Source: Pirellulales bacterium
Lineage (GTDB): Bacteria > Planctomycetota > Planctomycetia > Pirellulales > Pirellulaceae
Length of the DNA stretch: 55,002 nucleotides
Direction of reading: 5' to 3'
Assembly: GCA_022451045.1 (NCBI GenBank)
Contig: JAKUOW010000009.1
Coordinates: forward strand, 1-55,002
Shown: positions 125 to 13,004 of the stretch, piece after piece
How positions within the stretch are numbered: the stretch's first letter is position 1
Layout of the letters: every line of letters begins with the position of its first letter
The notes under the pieces: model-generated
Told to the model about the DNA's origin: nothing
Databases searched by the model: none
Seen by the model: only the letters and a program-made list of their open reading frames with translations
Position numbers and translations under genes: made by a program

Positions 125-333
125 TGAAAACGATTGCTTATGTGACTGTCAAAAACGTTTACGGCGAAGACCGCTACTATCCAGACTGTGAGAAGAGCAG
201 AGCGCTGGCAGAGATCGCCGGAACCAAGACATTGACAACCGCGACGATGAACCAAGCCTTTCGATTAGGGCTTGTGTTCGAGTCCAGGCATCGCCCAATC
301 AATGGAGTGATGCAGGCTGCAAATTATCGTTAG
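124..333 (+). CDS. Unknown 69-aa early protein
   Basis: Small protein started by GTG at 124, with AAGGAG placed 8 nt upstream and the start overlapping the preceding TAG. The sequence is mixed alpha/beta in composition with no transmembrane segment and no cysteine pairs beyond a single Cys. It lies just ahead of the two-hairpin leader and ardA, in the cluster of small early genes where phages carry host-takeover and anti-defence proteins. That position is the only hint to function. I do not recognise a family. Confidence 0.6.
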   Translation: MKTIAYVTVKNVYGEDRYYPDCEKSRALAEIAGTKTLTTATMNQAFRLGLVFESRHRPINGVMQAANYR

Positions 334-344
334 TCCAGCACCTA

Positions 345-406
345 GCGCCGGATACTTCCGGCGCGGCATGGTGGATTAGCCGCCAATACACAACAACACA
401 ACGAGG
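345..406 (+). promoter_or_regulatory. Two-hairpin leader, copy A (upstream of ardA)
   Basis: Hairpin 1 is an 8-bp perfect stem GCGCCGGA/TCCGGCGC (345-352 and 357-364) with loop TACT. Hairpin 2 is TGGTGG/CCGCCA (369-374 and 380-385, one G-U) with a 5-nt loop. Next comes CAACAACACAACGAGG (391-406), whose GAGG sits 9 nt before the ATG at 416. There is no T-tract, so it is not an ordinary terminator. Copies B, C and D have the same architecture with different stem sequences. Confidence 0.7.
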
Positions 407-415
407 CAACAAATT

Positions 416-988
416 ATGGAAAAAGTTTTAAAAATGGTTGAATCAACCATAACCAAGAAAAACACGACCAAGAAGAGCGGCCCTGCGTTATACGTCGGAA
501 CCTATGCCAAGTATAACAACGGTTCGATTTATGGTGCTTGGTTACAGCTGGAAGATTACGCCGACGCGGAAGAGTTTCACAAGGCTTGCGCGGCGCTTCA
601 TTCTGACGAGAGCGACCCCGAATATATGTTCCAAGATTATGAACACTTGCCAGAGTTTCTCTACAGCGAGAGCGGCAACGTTGATTTGATCTATGAATGG
701 TTAAGCTACGACACCATGGAGAGAGGCGCTATCGAAGCGTGGCTAAATGATATTTGTTTCGAGCCATCGGACAGATGGCAAAACATCATCGACAGTCACC
801 ATGGCGTTTGGGATAGCGAAGAAGATTTTGCTTGGCATATTGTCGAAGAGTGCGGCGGCTTCAACGACATCCCGCAGCATTTACAATGTTACTTTGACTG
901 CGGCAGCTATGCGCGAGATCTTTTCATAAACGATTTCAACAGCGCTTACGATAACGCTGGCAACATGCACGTTTTCAGTAACCACTAA
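416..988 (+). CDS. ardA: ArdA-like antirestriction protein
   Basis: 190-residue acidic protein. ArdA proteins mimic the bend and charge of B-form DNA and block type I restriction enzymes, protecting incoming phage or plasmid DNA. What shows it here: after a basic leader of about 25 residues comes a typical ArdA opening (LYVGTYAKYNNGS, then GAWL and EDY). This is followed by the family pattern of FHKAC, a D-P-E-Y-MFQDYE stretch around residues 60-75, and a long Asp/Glu-rich body. Length fits the family (about 165-190). The start at 416 lies behind leader copy A. A later in-frame ATG exists (M7), so the N-terminus is slightly uncertain. Its place among the first genes fits early expression on entry. 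The acidic C-terminal half is also consistent with DNA mimicry. Confidence 0.88.
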   Translation: MEKVLKMVESTITKKNTTKKSGPALYVGTYAKYNNGSIYGAWLQLEDYADAEEFHKACAALHSDESDPEYMFQDYEHLPEFLYSESGNVDLIYEWLSYDTMERGAIEAWLNDICFEPSDRWQNIIDSHHGVWDSEEDFAWHIVEECGGFNDIPQHLQCYFDCGSYARDLFINDFNSAYDNAGNMHVFSNH

Positions 989-1059
989 TGGAAATCGTTT
1001 TGCTAATCAATGCGGCCTTCACTGCTCTAGTGTTGGCCGCTTCATTTTTTGGAGGGTGA
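988..1059 (+). CDS. Possible 23-aa membrane micropeptide
   Basis: A tiny frame begins at an ATG that overlaps the ardA stop (TAATG) and ends TGA at 1057-1059, just before the next start. It encodes one hydrophobic helix-like segment (VLLINAAFTALVLAASFF). Coupling to ardA and the hydrophobic composition make it a plausible micropeptide, but so short a frame can arise by chance. No function is assigned. Confidence 0.35.
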   Translation: MEIVLLINAAFTALVLAASFFGG

Positions 1060-1061
1060 AC

Positions 1062-1358
1062 ATGGAAGATACAGAAATCAATTTCAGTGCTACGGCAAAT
1101 GTTGGAGACAAGATCAAGGCGTATCATTTCGCGCCTTCACCTGATCGAGAGGACAGCTACCTTATCGGCCACGTTATCAACAAAGGCAGATGTGAAAGCG
1201 GATATGACGCTTACACGGTGCAAGTCGTCGAGAACGTTTTCGGCGGCAAGTCAGTGCCAGTGATGGAATACGAAATTTCCTTCGTTCCTTATTTCTGCTG
1301 GGAAGATGGTTTTTACGTCGAGCACTGCGGCGTGGAGAGAGTAACTAAGGTTGATTAA
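1062..1358 (+). CDS. Unknown 98-aa early protein
   Basis: Soluble protein of 98 residues. ATG 1062 is chosen over the in-frame GTG at 1056 because GGAGGG at 1051-1056 is then correctly spaced. The sequence is rich in aromatic residues and suggests an all-beta fold (repeated short strands with Gly/Asp turns, such as YLIGHVINKGR). There is no known motif. It follows ardA in the same direction and precedes another unknown by 13 nt, so the group is probably one transcript. Confidence 0.7.
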   Translation: MEDTEINFSATANVGDKIKAYHFAPSPDREDSYLIGHVINKGRCESGYDAYTVQVVENVFGGKSVPVMEYEISFVPYFCWEDGFYVEHCGVERVTKVD

Positions 1359-1371
1359 TTTGGGGGTGACT

Positions 1372-1608
1372 ATGACAAAGAACTACGAACTGAAGACAGC
1401 GGCAAACGACGGCGTGTACGTGTCGTTTGTTGCGGAAGTAATCAAAGCATACAGCGACTGGGATTATTCAGACAGGGCGCTGGCATCTGCTGCGATACTT
1501 TACAGAGAGACTGTCGGCAAAGACTTTGTCGGTGACTTTGTGGACGTTGAGAACGTCGGCTTGATGCTGGACAACCTCACATTAGAGAGAAGCAATTTTG
1601 CTGCCTAG
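1372..1608 (+). CDS. Unknown 78-aa early protein
   Basis: The likely start is ATG 1372, preceded by GGGGGTG 3-9 nt upstream. A TTG 21 nt earlier in frame is less convincing. The product is 78 residues, soluble and mainly helical by composition. It begins YELKTAANDGVYVSF and has a central AYSDWDYSDRALASAAILY stretch. I do not recognise a family. It is the last gene before leader copy B, which begins 10 nt after its stop. Confidence 0.65.
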   Translation: MTKNYELKTAANDGVYVSFVAEVIKAYSDWDYSDRALASAAILYRETVGKDFVGDFVDVENVGLMLDNLTLERSNFAA

Positions 1609-1617
1609 CATAGCACT

Positions 1618-1680
1618 AGCGTCAGCCACGGCTGGCGCTGCATGGTGTGCTAGACACCGCAACGCAACAACACAACGAGG
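1618..1680 (+). promoter_or_regulatory. Two-hairpin leader, copy B (upstream of DUF2958 gene)
   Basis: Hairpin 1: AGCGTCAGC/GCTGGCGCT (1618-1626 and 1631-1639, one G-U) with a 4-nt loop. Hairpin 2: GGTGT/ACACC (1644-1648 and 1654-1658) with loop GCTAG. Then CAACAACACAACGAGG (1665-1680), identical to copy A over 16 nt. The ATG follows at 1692. Stems differ in sequence from copy A but pair equally well. Confidence 0.7.
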
Positions 1681-1691
1681 TAGAAAAAATT

Positions 1692-2030
1692 ATGAAAGTC
1701 ATTACAAAAGAAATCGAAAAGAAGTTGAGAGCCAATGCCAAATTAGAAGGCGTTGATTACGCAGACCTTGAGCCAGTTGTAAAACTTTTCCAGCCTGACG
1801 GCGCGGCAACCATGCTGCTATCGACGCTGGACGACGACGGCGTGGTACAGGGCGTGTTTGATCTTGGTCTTGGTTACGTTGAAATGGGGCCAGCCTACTT
1901 GCCGGAGATACTGGCCGTTAAGGGTGGTCTTGGTTTGTCAATTGAACGTGACACATCGTTTAAAGCAGAGAAGACCGTCGCCCAGTACTGGAGCGACTCA
2001 CAAGCAACCCAAACATTAGAAGCATACTAA
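1692..2030 (+). CDS. DUF2958 family protein
   Basis: 112-residue protein beginning at ATG 1692, 11 nt after the conserved GAGG of leader B. The sequence follows the DUF2958 pattern: a short N-terminal helix, then PVVKLFQPDGAATMLLSTLD, then FDLGLGYVEMG and a C-terminal LGLSIERDTSFKAEKTVAQY block. DUF2958 proteins are common on conjugative plasmids and phages, often near antirestriction genes, and their biochemical role is unknown. Here it lies close to ardA and shares the same leader type, which suggests co-regulation. Family assignment is from recalled motif pattern rather than a search. Size matches the family's usual 100-130 residues. Confidence 0.75.
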   Translation: MKVITKEIEKKLRANAKLEGVDYADLEPVVKLFQPDGAATMLLSTLDDDGVVQGVFDLGLGYVEMGPAYLPEILAVKGGLGLSIERDTSFKAEKTVAQYWSDSQATQTLEAY

Positions 2031-2052
2031 AGGAGGTATTTGCAGCGTACAG

Positions 2053-2114
2053 GCGGCGGGGTAACTCGCCGCTTTTGCGGTGTTAATGCGCACCATGTGA
2101 AAAACACAACGAGG
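2053..2114 (+). promoter_or_regulatory. Two-hairpin leader, copy C
   Basis: Hairpin 1: GCGGCGGG/CTCGCCGC (2053-2060 and 2065-2072, one G-U) closed by GTAA, a GNRA-type tetraloop. Hairpin 2: GGTG/CACC (2079-2082 and 2091-2094). Then CACAACGAGG at 2105-2114, with an ATG at 2126. The order and spacing match copies A and B while the stem sequences differ. Confidence 0.65.
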
Positions 2115-2699: not shown

Positions 2700-2709
2700 C
2701 ACAACGAGG
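2700..2709 (+). promoter_or_regulatory. CACAACGAGG ribosome-binding element, copy E
   Basis: The same CACAACGAGG as in leaders A-D, 14 nt before the ATG at 2724. Hairpin 1 is absent. Only a weak GTTT/AAAC stem (2687-2690 and 2697-2700) precedes it, so this is a reduced member of the leader family. Confidence 0.5.
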
Positions 2710-2723
2710 TACAAGGAAATGTT

Positions 2724-2984
2724 ATGGCTAAAAAAACTTTTCAAATTGAAGGTGTTGATAAGCCTTTTTCTTACGATAAAGAAGAATCCTTCAACGCGGC
2801 TTGTGATGTGTTAGAAAAATTTGTGGATAGTCGTAAAGAAGAAGGGTTCATGGCGCTGCTTAGTTTGAGCAGGGCGATGGCACTTGTTTTATTAAACAAC
2901 GCATCCAACGCAAAACAATGTGAAGAGATGCTTCAAATAATACTTGAAGAAATAAATGACACTACACGCACTCACATGGACTAA
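2724..2984 (+). CDS. Unknown 86-aa early protein
   Basis: Soluble protein beginning at ATG 2724 behind element E. The first 20 residues look beta-rich (FQIEGVDKPFSYD), and the rest is predicted helical with an alanine/leucine-rich core (residues 45-75). No motif of a known family is visible. Its 3' end overlaps an AAGGAGG (2983-2989) serving the next gene, so translation is probably coupled. Role unknown. Confidence 0.65.
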   Translation: MAKKTFQIEGVDKPFSYDKEESFNAACDVLEKFVDSRKEEGFMALLSLSRAMALVLLNNASNAKQCEEMLQIILEEINDTTRTHMD

Positions 2985-2996
2985 GGAGGAAACGTG

Positions 2997-3503
2997 ATGA
3001 ATGTAGATGAAAATTTTGCAAAGGAAACTAGGGATGCGGTTGCGTGGATAAGTAGTCACCTAACCGTAGAAGAAAATGTAGTATTTGAAGATGATGTGAT
3101 TGTGTTAAGGGCAAGGAATGCAAGATTAAAATCGCATAAAGATAGACCTATCCGTAGCCGTCTTTTGCCTATCTTCATTTGCTACATTGACCGTTTTAGT
3201 TTGTCTTTGTCTCACAATTTGGACGTTGGTGATCCATTGCAGGATCATCACACAGTCAATTGTGTGTACTGGAGGTCTTATCGACCTGAGTTTTTTAGTA
3301 AATCTGAATCAGGGAGAGTGCGGAACAAGGCAACATACTTTGTCGGCGATGTATTCTCAAAATCTCAATGGCAAATTCCATACGGCAAATCGCCTTTTGT
3401 AATGGATCTACATTCAAATGAGCGGTTTCTCTTTGAACTCGATTTAGGGCAAGTTGCAATGATGTATGAGGATGAGTGGAATATTTCTAAGGAGGAAACG
3501 TGA
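2997..3503 (+). CDS. Unknown 168-aa early protein
   Basis: Start at ATG 2997 (a GTG lies directly before it at 2994). AAGGAGG at 2983-2989 favours the ATG, with a 7-nt spacing. The protein has a helical N-terminus. The middle is beta-rich and holds ICYIDRFSLSLSHNL and two tryptophans, and the C-terminus is acidic. No known domain is recognised. The 3' end carries the same AAGGAGGAAACGTGATGA cassette that precedes its own start, now serving the next gene. This suggests duplication of a translation-initiation segment. Confidence 0.65.
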   Translation: MNVDENFAKETRDAVAWISSHLTVEENVVFEDDVIVLRARNARLKSHKDRPIRSRLLPIFICYIDRFSLSLSHNLDVGDPLQDHHTVNCVYWRSYRPEFFSKSESGRVRNKATYFVGDVFSKSQWQIPYGKSPFVMDLHSNERFLFELDLGQVAMMYEDEWNISKEET

Positions 3504-3718
3504 TGACAGATTTTTTAAATCCTCACAACCTTGAAGGGGCTTGGTACAGTTTACATCGTTACCCCAACGATAATTTCAATGAATATAAGATGAGCGATTT
3601 TGCTAGTAAGTGGGGGAAGCTGACGGAAGAACAGCAATCAGCAGCCAATGAATTATTCAAAGCTGCGACCAATTCTACCTTCGATGAGTTTTTAGAAGTT
3701 GCAAGGGAAGAGCTGTGA
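3503..3718 (+). CDS. Unknown 71-aa early protein
   Basis: ATG 3503 overlaps the previous TGA (TGATG), with AAGGAGG at 3489-3495 set 7 nt upstream. The product is a small helical acidic protein with the sequence WGKLTEEQQSAANELFKAATN in its centre and a C-terminal FDEFLEVAREEL helix. It has no membrane segment or cysteines. Function is not known. It is coupled to the following gene by a GTGA overlap. Confidence 0.65.
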   Translation: MTDFLNPHNLEGAWYSLHRYPNDNFNEYKMSDFASKWGKLTEEQQSAANELFKAATNSTFDEFLEVAREEL

Positions 3719-3984: not shown

Positions 3985-5196
3985 ATGGATTTATTCAATC
4001 GAGTTATCGCGGCCCATGCTCAACCGAAAAAGGGCTTTGCCCAACTAAATGATTTTTCAACAGAACGCCGCGAGGAGTTGTCGTGGTGTAAGCGACAAGC
4101 AGAAATCCGCTTACAAGAAAACCGAGTCAACCTGTTAGGTTCGCAAAGGTTTATTCTCAGCAACCAAATGCTTGATCACGCAATCTCCGCATCTTTATCA
4201 AAACCTGCTACGATGTTGGATATGCTTTCCACCGCTATTCCCTGTTTCGACAATATGTGGATGGAATTTGATCAACATCACTATATGAAAAGGGCTATGG
4301 AATTGCAAGACGGTATATCTATTGAAGATTTACCAGATGGACACGATCACAAAGATTTTAATCGATGGCCCGATAAAATCGGTTTCCATTTCAGAAAAAT
4401 GAATGATAGTCAGTTCAGCACAGTTGCATACGAAAGAGGTAATACTAAGACTTTGGTTGAACCAGGATTTGGTGACTATAGTTTTATGATTATGGGTTAT
4501 AGCTCTGGGAATAATGGCGAAACGCGAGGTGTTAGCATAAGTGCTGATAAAATTGATGTGTCACCAATGGCTCTTGCTATAAACTTCTCGCAAGCTGGAA
4601 TACACTCAGCCTCTAAAGACTTTAACCTCAATTTACTTGGTGAGAAATATTGCAAGACTCACGAACAACACAAAGAAAGTTTGGATGCGTTTGCTGGATC
4701 ATTTGCTATAAGTATTTCTACTATTGATGCGGTAACAAACAAACCGCCGATTGATAAATTACTGCGGGAAAATCAGCTACCAAAAACAGGAATACTTCTT
4801 TATGGAGCGCAATTTTTCGGTAGCATCATAAGAACCTTGATTTCTGCATTAGCCTTGCTTAATTATCCGCATATCATAATTCAACGTGACCAGCCCAAGA
4901 CATCTAGCAGAGATTTTTATCTTGGACGCAAGCTGCCGAAGAATGAATTGAAGGTTTTGGAAGTTGATCTGCCGAAGCCCCGAGGCACAACGCACTACGA
5001 AAAAATATTTAAAGGGCGCGGCAATAAAAAGCGACAGCATACTCGTCGCGGCCACTGGCGGGTTCTGCGCTTAAAAGAAGGTGGCATAAGGCGAACTTGG
5101 GTAAAAGAATGTTTAGCCGGAGATCCATCTCTTGGCGTGATTATTCACGATTATCACCTCAAGTCAACGCAACCACTAACAGCGCACATTTCGTAA
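3985..5196 (+). CDS. Unknown 403-aa phage protein with basic C-terminal tail
   Basis: The largest gene of the early region, starting at ATG 3985 behind GGAAGAG. The first two thirds look like a mixed alpha/beta globular domain with a hydrophobic helix near residues 275-297 (TGILLYGAQFFGSIIRTLIS). The last quarter is strongly basic and contains the pattern RQHTRRGHWR followed by a Gly-Gly, Trp and Val-Lys stretch. I recall this tail pattern from uncharacterised proteins of alphaproteobacterial phages, where it is annotated as hypothetical. The basic, aromatic tail would suit nucleic-acid binding, but no catalytic motif is visible. It stands alone between a terminator and a possible promoter. 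Confidence 0.75.
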   Translation: MDLFNRVIAAHAQPKKGFAQLNDFSTERREELSWCKRQAEIRLQENRVNLLGSQRFILSNQMLDHAISASLSKPATMLDMLSTAIPCFDNMWMEFDQHHYMKRAMELQDGISIEDLPDGHDHKDFNRWPDKIGFHFRKMNDSQFSTVAYERGNTKTLVEPGFGDYSFMIMGYSSGNNGETRGVSISADKIDVSPMALAINFSQAGIHSASKDFNLNLLGEKYCKTHEQHKESLDAFAGSFAISISTIDAVTNKPPIDKLLRENQLPKTGILLYGAQFFGSIIRTLISALALLNYPHIIIQRDQPKTSSRDFYLGRKLPKNELKVLEVDLPKPRGTTHYEKIFKGRGNKKRQHTRRGHWRVLRLKEGGIRRTWVKECLAGDPSLGVIIHDYHLKSTQPLTAHIS

Positions 5197-6918: not shown

Positions 6919-6954
6919 TAAAAAAGGCGAAGGGTTATGGATGCCCTTCGCCTT
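6917..6954 (-). terminator. Rho-independent terminator of the replication operon
   Basis: Eleven-bp perfect stem AAGGCGAAGGG/CCCTTCGCCTT (6924-6934 and 6944-6954) with a 9-nt loop. Read on the minus strand it is followed by TTTTTTATT, so it terminates transcription coming from the primase-helicase gene. Confidence 0.85.
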
Positions 6955-6982
6955 GGTGTTGCGCCTACCAGACACAACGAGG
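6924..6982 (+). promoter_or_regulatory. Orphan copy D of the two-hairpin leader
   Basis: Read on the plus strand, the same 11-bp hairpin is followed by a second stem TGGT/ACCA (6954-6957 and 6967-6970) and then CACAACGAGG at 6973-6982. This matches the order of copies A-C, and the sequence GGTGTT then GCGC resembles copy C. No plus-strand gene starts behind it. Confidence 0.5.
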
Positions 6983-6989
6983 TTCTTTC

Positions 6990-11883: not shown

Positions 11884-12267
11884 ATGGCAGAATATCAAGA
11901 CAAACCAGGAGACATTACGCTTTGGATGATGGGTAAAGACCGTCAGGAAGAGTTTAAAGCAAGCGGTTACTTGCTGGATGGCAACCTCGATAGAGTAAAC
12001 ACAGTTGTACAGAAGGTCACAACCAAGAACGGCAAAACAGTTCGGCGGCTCTATGCAGAAGTCGGCGCAATGTTTGAAACGGATAGTACGCATGAAAAAG
12101 CGCCTTGGCTATCAGGCAAGGTAGACATAGCATCGCTTCCAGACATGACGAAGATCTCGCTTTGGAAACGAGAGAGCAAAGACGGAAGAGGGTTTCTGTC
12201 CGGCATGATTGATGAACCATACGAAGCACAAGCCGGTAACAAACAGAAGTCAATGGATGATGTCTGA
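11884..12267 (+). CDS. Recombination-block protein, possible ssDNA-binding accessory
   Basis: 127 residues behind GAAAGGAAAAAAC. Composition suggests a small beta-barrel: PGDITLWMM, a GYLLDGNLDRV strand pair, then TKISLWKRESKDGRGFLSGMI, followed by a disordered acidic tail. This resembles small phage or plasmid proteins that accompany annealases (DUF736-like in outline), but I cannot assert homology. Its position directly after ERF suggests a role with single-stranded DNA. The final residues overlap the next gene's start. Confidence 0.6.
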   Translation: MAEYQDKPGDITLWMMGKDRQEEFKASGYLLDGNLDRVNTVVQKVTTKNGKTVRRLYAEVGAMFETDSTHEKAPWLSGKVDIASLPDMTKISLWKRESKDGRGFLSGMIDEPYEAQAGNKQKSMDDV

Positions 12268-12460
12268 ACCAGAGTTTCTATCAACAAAGGATCTTATGAA
12301 GCGGCTTGGCGTCTCTCGTAAATATATAGAAAGTATGCGCAAGAACGGCGATGGCCCACCGTTTATAAAGATCAGTGAAAAAATGATTCGCTACCCAGTG
12401 TGTGGTTACGATGCTTGGATACAACGACAACTAGCTTTGCCGAAGGCTAGTGACAAGTAG
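12260..12460 (+). CDS. AlpA/excisionase-like MerR-type HTH protein
   Basis: 66 residues. The double ATG at 12257/12260 overlaps the preceding stop at 12267. The frame encodes the classic helix-turn-helix layout of AlpA and Xis proteins: FLSTKDLMKRLGVSRKYIESM, then GDGPPFIKISEKMIRYP and a C-terminal VCGYDAWIQRQL. These proteins bend DNA at att sites or activate promoters. Located upstream of the integrase and tandem TGTATCA sites, it is a good candidate recombination directionality factor or transcriptional regulator. Size fits the family (60-75 residues). Confidence 0.82.
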   Translation: MSEPEFLSTKDLMKRLGVSRKYIESMRKNGDGPPFIKISEKMIRYPVCGYDAWIQRQLALPKASDK

Positions 12461-13004
12461 CTACACACAAAGCGGGTATCCTCGTCTGGCAGATGATAAC
12501 TATCAGACCGTAGATGAACGTTGCCTGGACTCGTTTTTAGAAATTTATGGTGAAGAGATATTAGCGCCGATTTGCGATCCCTGCGTCAGCAAGGATGGCG
12601 AGTCGGCGTTAGTCACTCAATTAATTAACAAAGGCTACGACGCAGAAGGCGGCTGTCTTTTCGAACACAACGCTAAAACAATCATCACAAACCCGCCATA
12701 TAAACGCGATGTCGTTGACAAGATCGCCGGTGAGATATTAGCGCAAGTTAAAGAGGGCCGTGTTAAGTTGGCGGCAATGCTTGTGCGCAGCGGCTGGGAT
12801 CTTGCAAAGCGCCGACAGTATCTTTTTGACGACCCAGCATTTAGCGGTCTAGTGCGGCTAACTTTCAGACCTTGGTGGACAAGTTCTCGAAAAGCGCAGC
12901 CGATACACGGCTACCAGTGGGTTGTCTTAGAGCACGACAAATACCTCGATTATCTGGACGAGGGGTATGATGAACCAGCGGAAGTCTGGCACGTTTATTT
13001 ATGA
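12450..13004 (+). CDS. N6-adenine methyltransferase-like protein, atypical motif I
   Basis: 184 residues from GTG 12450 (AAGG five nt upstream; overlaps the previous gene by 11 nt). The catalytic motif TNPPY (residues about 78-82) is that of N6-adenine or N4-cytosine DNA methyltransferases, followed by the helix KRDVVDKIAGEIL and AAMLVRSGWDLAKRR, as in small phage Dam-like enzymes. The S-adenosylmethionine motif is unusual: where DPFAGSG or EPACGDG is expected it reads CDPCVSKDGES. The enzyme may still bind the cofactor, or may have lost activity. It could protect phage DNA or modify host sites. Confidence 0.72.
   Translation: MTSSYTQSGYPRLADDNYQTVDERCLDSFLEIYGEEILAPICDPCVSKDGESALVTQLINKGYDAEGGCLFEHNAKTIITNPPYKRDVVDKIAGEILAQVKEGRVKLAAMLVRSGWDLAKRRQYLFDDPAFSGLVRLTFRPWWTSSRKAQPIHGYQWVVLEHDKYLDYLDEGYDEPAEVWHVYL

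Follow-up and report, generated by a model that had tools for sequence, protein, structure and literature searches.

At the start of the stretch of DNA analyzed here, the same 10-nt core stands ahead of several small early genes, in each case with potential hairpins upstream. Do these leaders form one family of structured elements, and at which level would such elements act? The stretch, hereafter the window, is contig C388 (55,002 bases), one of the 398 that make up a metagenome-assembled genome, and appears to hold most of a tailed temperate phage. The genes for terminase, portal, and structural proteins lie on its minus strand; other genes encode a tyrosine recombinase (Phage_integrase, E=1.8e-6), a PD-(D/E)XK-like nuclease, and an ERF annealing protein, and one gene is repressor-like. 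Close relatives were found in IMG/VR: L054/L139 and L163/L140 (each a single contig present in two orientations), L226, and L227. The gap between the two ends of the window is bridged by L163 and L227 with, in order, a minus-strand gene that looks like a small terminase subunit (our own naming), a probable promoter region, and early plus-strand genes running into window position 1. In L163, a leader of ~300 nt (922-1347), rich in hairpins and with repeated TTGCAAAAAA-like sequences, separates the first early gene from the probable small terminase gene.

The core CACAACGAGG occurs in the window at 397, 1671, 2105, 2700, and 6973, always on the plus strand. These five exact copies compare with 0.05 expected (200 dinucleotide shuffles, maximum 1). 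The first four are followed by an ATG 9-15 nt downstream, in agreement with the original prediction of a sequence shared ahead of start codons, and a Shine–Dalgarno GAGG is contained in the core. The copy at 397..406 precedes ardA (416..988, plus strand; PF07275 ArdA, E=9e-31), that at 1671..1680 a DUF2958 gene (1692..2030, plus strand; PF11171, E=2.6e-24), and that at 2105..2114 the gene at 2126. Further copies had been expected in related phages, and L163 contains eight, seven of them gene-associated and mostly in the form CACAACGAGGTAAA-ATG. Behind the cores, more of the start region is unpaired than at other early starts (mean ~0.65 vs. 0.48, p=0.0002, a test in which homologous copies are included, so that the samples are non-independent).

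On folding, elements A, B, and C of the window and B2, C2, and G of the relatives each form one long irregular hairpin. P1 comprises 7-9 pairs and, in C, contains a mismatch; above it follow a G.G mismatch, a short CA:UG helix, and a small internal loop, topped by P3 with 8-10 pairs and a loop of mostly 4 nt. The hairpins total 17-23 pairs and span 47-55 nt (47-54 nt in A, B, and C), or about two helical turns. Thus, the upper stems of 8-10 bp with 4-nt loops that had been proposed are present, but the proposed order of two successive hairpins gives way to a single irregular one, and the elements begin 10-17 nt upstream of the leader starts first assigned.

Element A (331..378, plus strand; -28.3 kcal/mol; z -4.13 over 331-421) pairs UAGUCCA:UGGAUUA in P1, followed by G.G, CA:UG, the internal loop, and P3 with GCGCCGGA:UCCGGCGC. 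The hairpin opens with the stop codon of the 124-333 gene (3 nt) and scores 67.8 bits in the covariance model, with A itself within the training set. Element B (1606..1652, plus strand; -27.4 kcal/mol; z -2.83 over 1606-1697) starts likewise with the stop codon of the 1351-1608 gene, and an identical hairpin is found in L163 at 3554-3600. Element C (2036..2089, plus strand; -31.7 kcal/mol; z -3.61 over 2035-2128) begins 8 nt past the start of the DUF2958 stop codon and has sister copies in L163 at 4632-4685 and 2669-2722. The covariance model R1 recovers C-type elements at weak E-values only (0.55 and 3); the kinship of C to A and B is instead based on position, the shared core, and the P1/G.G/GGUG..CACC layout. 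A scan for single hairpins within 50 nt, covering both strands and requiring at least 16 pairs and -24 kcal/mol or lower, gives 8 places over 55 kb; the first 12 kb contain four of these, including A, B, and C. The strongest hairpin of the window (~20 pairs, -37.6 kcal/mol for 58 nt) lies at 12558-12615 within ORF 12450-13004 of the plus strand; this coding-region hairpin is retained in L054 at ~11956-12030 (-36.1 kcal/mol).

The pairing pattern is maintained while the sequences change. In the A/B/G-type sequences (n=5), 96.8% of the cells are paired and 8 of the 19 pairs are changed on both sides, a level reached in 0/500 shuffles; sliding the partner by 1-3 columns cuts pairing to 23-46%. 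For P1 alone, with the C types included (8 distinct elements), 96.4% of the cells are paired, 0/500 shuffles reach the covariation score, and there are 15 double-change cells vs. 4.8 expected. The sequences are few and related (8 distinct, in two subtypes), and the shuffle results are therefore not exact probabilities. The comparison of B with B2, within one genome and with identical flanks, is persuasive by itself: the stem pairs change from C-G to U-G, G-C to A-U, U-G to G-C, and A-U to C-G. The G.G mismatch and the adjoining A-U pair are invariant in 8/8 elements, while P1 and P3 vary. The compensatory change and selection on RNA structure first proposed are thereby upheld for the long hairpin. 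They do not extend to the second hairpin of the original prediction, GGUG/CACC, in which no both-sided changes occur. This pairing is 2.0-6.8 kcal/mol less stable and overlaps the 3′ strand of P1, so that both cannot form together. GGUG/CACC is a conserved sequence, not a shown structure.

Folding scores favor the sense strand over the antisense strand (z of -4.1, -2.8, -3.6, and -3.3 vs. -1.8, -0.4, -1.3, and -1.2), and 1-5 G.U pairs per element are present in the sense strand. Both features favor an mRNA element rather than single-stranded DNA, pointing to action at the mRNA level, and the post-transcriptional role that had been proposed is in this respect supported.

The placement is regular. 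The distance from the first base of the upstream stop codon to the hairpin is 0-14 nt in 10/10 cases; P1 of A, B, and B2 opens with the stop codon as its first three bases. Downstream from the hairpin come 14-18 nt that are mostly unpaired, then CACAACGAGG(UAA), then the start codon, with 30-39 nt between hairpin and start codon in 8/10 (~70 nt in G). A scan for sigma-70-like promoters (the promoter type covered) and for terminators gives no such site at A, B, or C, from which we infer that the genes around the elements are co-transcribed. Behind element C stands a TTTT. An open frame runs through A, B, and B2, but we do not read the A/B leaders as coding, since the spacer of B is 4 nt shorter in L163 and G shifts the frame.

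Not every core is accompanied by such a hairpin. Core D (2700..2709, plus strand), predicted to be a reduced copy, does have the core, but the window lacks the hairpin there (fold z = 0.26); in the L163 and L054 counterparts of D, hairpin G lies ~48 nt ahead of this core. A core alone is also present in L054 at 423, and the hairpin is thus not required at every border. Element F (L163 5790-5850; L054 1957-2017) has the same core with two separate hairpins, unlike the long A/B/C type. The plus-strand copy at 6973..6982, for which an orphan element at 6924-6982 had been claimed, has no plus-strand gene downstream and is probably a non-working member. In the region 6924-6989, kept in both relatives, the core copy lies between opposed genes and beside a minus-strand terminator-like hairpin. 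Read on the minus strand, the 6924-6982 hairpin is followed by TTTTTTATT and looks like the terminator of the helicase gene; a pair changed in the relatives is G.U solely in that reading. The locus was therefore left out of the family, its core notwithstanding.

The original prediction tied the element to ardA and the DUF2958 gene behind it. In the relatives, the hairpins A, B, and C remain linked instead to the gene before them, and replacement of the downstream gene begins immediately after CACAACGAGG. L163 matches the window around A at 93-100% identity as far as the core extends and at 42-65% (about 50%) thereafter, with a gene unrelated to ardA behind the same hairpin A; C behaves likewise. 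In L163, an extra cassette made up of genes at 3631 and 3879 and hairpin B2 separates B from the DUF2958 gene, which there follows B2, not B, and the B/B2 junction falls inside the hairpin region. The opposite sharing is found as well: at L163 4701 and L054 423, the core and the downstream gene are common while the upstream sequence is not, and with element F the element and the downstream gene are common to L163 and L054 while the gene on the upstream side was gained or lost. The methyltransferase-like cassette gene of these contigs (L163 4717-5391; L054 439-1224; phrog_757, E=9e-51 for the L163 copy) has very similar ends and differing middle parts. A second start-associated repeat (AAGGAGGAAACGTGATG or GGAAACGT) occurs in the window at 2981-3000 and 3487-3506, in L163 at 6313 and 6690, and in L054 at 2478, 2968, and 3473; the GGAAACGT copies flank the gene 6322-6699 of L163, which is absent from L054. 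Since swaps occur at several kinds of border (B/B2, F, and GGAAACGT), what the swaps have in common seems to be the borders and not a single site-specific enzyme, and homologous recombination via ERF would be sufficient to explain the exchange.

On present data, the element is limited to one phage lineage. At gathering scores, Rfam matches nothing in the window, and at A, B, and C nothing is worth keeping at E up to 10; the sole overlap is PrrB_RsmZ at 1935-2079 (14.4 bits vs. a cut-off of 44). Among 398 genomes of the class, the covariance model R1 finds the window only. It finds none in 69 contigs retrieved through the portal protein, where absence says little because the contigs of the closest relatives end before the element region. 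The covariance-model search that had been suggested thus recovers the hairpins in two relatives (L163/L140 and L054/L139), but not elsewhere in the viral contigs and genomes searched. The genome contigs contain neither the hairpin consensus pattern nor a match in a helicase search, and the ArdA relatives in viral contigs are distant, with neither core nor hairpin upstream. Two further viral pattern matches were set aside as chance on the basis of the covariance model, the fold, and the lack of shared genes; ACACAACGAGG-N-ATG loci in viral contigs are mostly chance, with hairpins in the close relatives only. In six viral contigs (L062, L129, L174, L204, L205, and L214), a terminator-like hairpin is directly followed by (C)AACACAACGAGG-N-ATG; these start regions of other phages are possibly convergent.

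What, then, would the elements do? We favor, at about one half, a reading of the elements as signals at cassette borders, in which a putative RNase III processing or insulation hairpin and an open translation start double as recombination joints. The part supported by the sequence is the succession, in an early polycistronic mRNA, of a hairpin right after the stop codon, an unpaired stretch, the core, and the start codon. The host RNase III would cut or bind the hairpin, as at the T7 early sites, and so separate the mRNAs of neighboring cassettes; the open CA-rich start region would give strong translation independent of the upstream gene. Because many borders share sequence, homologous recombination (with the ERF-type annealing protein and the PD-(D/E)XK-like nuclease) could swap or drop whole cassettes with expression intact. 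Against this reading, RNase III needs little sequence, yet the G.G and the neighboring AGCA / GCAUGGU are kept, which suggests a recognition more specific than that of RNase III; GGUG/CACC, too, is kept in all elements for no reason under an RNase III model. The estimate is no higher since cleavage is only inferred and the G.G motif and CACC exceed what RNase III needs. The match to a host RNase III in the metagenome-assembled genome is weak and partial, and the host assignment itself rests on that assembly.

The kept internal loop is what an operator would offer to a sequence-specific RNA-binding protein, of phage or host, that jointly controls the early genes bearing the element. The variable stems would then present a fixed motif (A-U, G.G, C-G, then GCAUGGUG), as the invariance of G.G and flanking A-U among changing P1 and P3 suggests. 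No candidate regulator was identified, the elements follow stop codons and leave 30-39 nt to the start instead of covering the Shine–Dalgarno, and the genes behind them change; we regard such an operator as rather unlikely. Slightly better odds, still well short of even, go to the broader notion of a phage RNA element not described before, whose internal-loop motif, recognized by a protein or gated by ribosomes, would jointly control exchangeable early anti-host genes. Gating by ribosomes could take the form of a bistable switch: a ribosome at the upstream stop codon, which lies at the foot of P1, would cover P1, GGUG/CACC would pair, and the translation of neighboring genes would become coupled. 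The two pairings are mutually exclusive, possible in all elements, and differ by 2.0-6.8 kcal/mol only, but the lack of covariation in GGUG/CACC, and of a strong partner for the freed CACC near the start codon, makes the switch improbable.

A stable hairpin directly after stop codons, in C with TTTT behind it, could also stabilize the mRNA as protection of a 3′ end, terminate weakly, or act as a put-like antiterminator. This is, if anything, a little more doubtful still, because A, B, and C fail the terminator scan and the hairpin is repeated between genes inside an operon instead of occurring once at the operon start. A single-stranded DNA site used by the phage tyrosine recombinase has very little in its favor, despite the likeness to integron attC: in both, a gene with a 3′ imperfect palindrome forms a unit, with structure kept and sequence variable, and in the comparisons gene and 3′ hairpin do move as a cassette. 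The attC sites fold and are conserved on the bottom strand, whereas here the fold and the G.U asymmetry favor the transcribed strand. An integron integrase was not found in the phage (NF040815, 17.5 bits vs. a cut-off of 220), its recombinase being far from that family, and the B/B2 junction inside the hairpin region and the GGAAACGT copies flanking another inserted gene fit general homologous recombination. Least probable of all is an origin by chance or as plain ribosome-binding variants. The core as a common ribosome-binding variant holds to the extent that ACACAACGAGG-ATG alone arises by chance in many unrelated viral contigs, so that a core without hairpin is not diagnostic; it does not hold for the hairpin-bearing element, where the shuffle counts (5 copies vs. 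0.05), the covariation, and the repetition in relatives rule it out.

The border reading bears on a general problem. Early phage regions contain many small anti-host genes that are rapidly gained and lost, and a border element that preserves expression whatever gene is inserted would explain how such regions stay functional. It would link the T7 processing sites, the start-associated sequences (SAS) of mycobacteriophages, and the PeSLs of T4-like phages as separate solutions to one problem. With their fixed internal motif, the covarying stems constitute a concrete, testable RNA.

The SAS of Cluster K mycobacteriophages is a short asymmetric repeat with a Shine–Dalgarno that precedes, always in the same orientation, non-structural genes belonging to various families; an inverted repeat lies upstream of about half of the copies (PMC3203893). 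The likeness noted at the outset is borne out in position (a few nucleotides from start codons), single orientation, internal Shine–Dalgarno, and gene type, with a motif of its own: the core is GGGATAGGAGCCC there and CACAACGAGG here. The inverted repeats of the extended SAS have a 17-bp consensus, without covariation, and their authors saw little support for pairing in the mRNA (PMC3203893), in contrast to the covarying stems here. PeSL cassettes of T4-like phages (Arbiol 2010; Comeau 2014, as described in PMC4503421) combine an early promoter with a terminator stem-loop and likewise place repeated stem-loop signals at the borders of shuffled small genes; neither a sigma-70-like promoter nor a terminator was found at A, B, or C.

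The closest parallel is T7. Upstream of T7 genes 0.3, 0.5, 1, 1.1, and 1.3, folding gives hairpins in which an internal loop or bulge separates an upper stem of 9-13 bp from a lower one, with the start codon close; no such fold occurs before 0.7, and a long single stem before 3.8. These five are the well-established RNase III sites R0.3, R0.5, R1, R1.1, and R1.3. The start of gene 0.3, GCACGAGGUAACACAAGAUG, is near the CACAACGAGGUAAA-AUG of the present element, a likeness that may be convergence. Both systems place irregular hairpins, some two helical turns long and interrupted by an internal loop, between early genes and just upstream of ribosome-binding sites and start codons in a polycistronic transcript (presumed here), and both have an anti-restriction gene behind such a site (ocr in T7, ardA here). 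Peculiar to the present elements are the conserved G.G with its flanking motif, the repeated 10-nt core, and the exchange of copies together with the upstream gene, cleavage being putative. The arrangement looks like that of the T7 RNase III cutting sites, but the phages are unrelated and the present elements have a conserved signature of their own.
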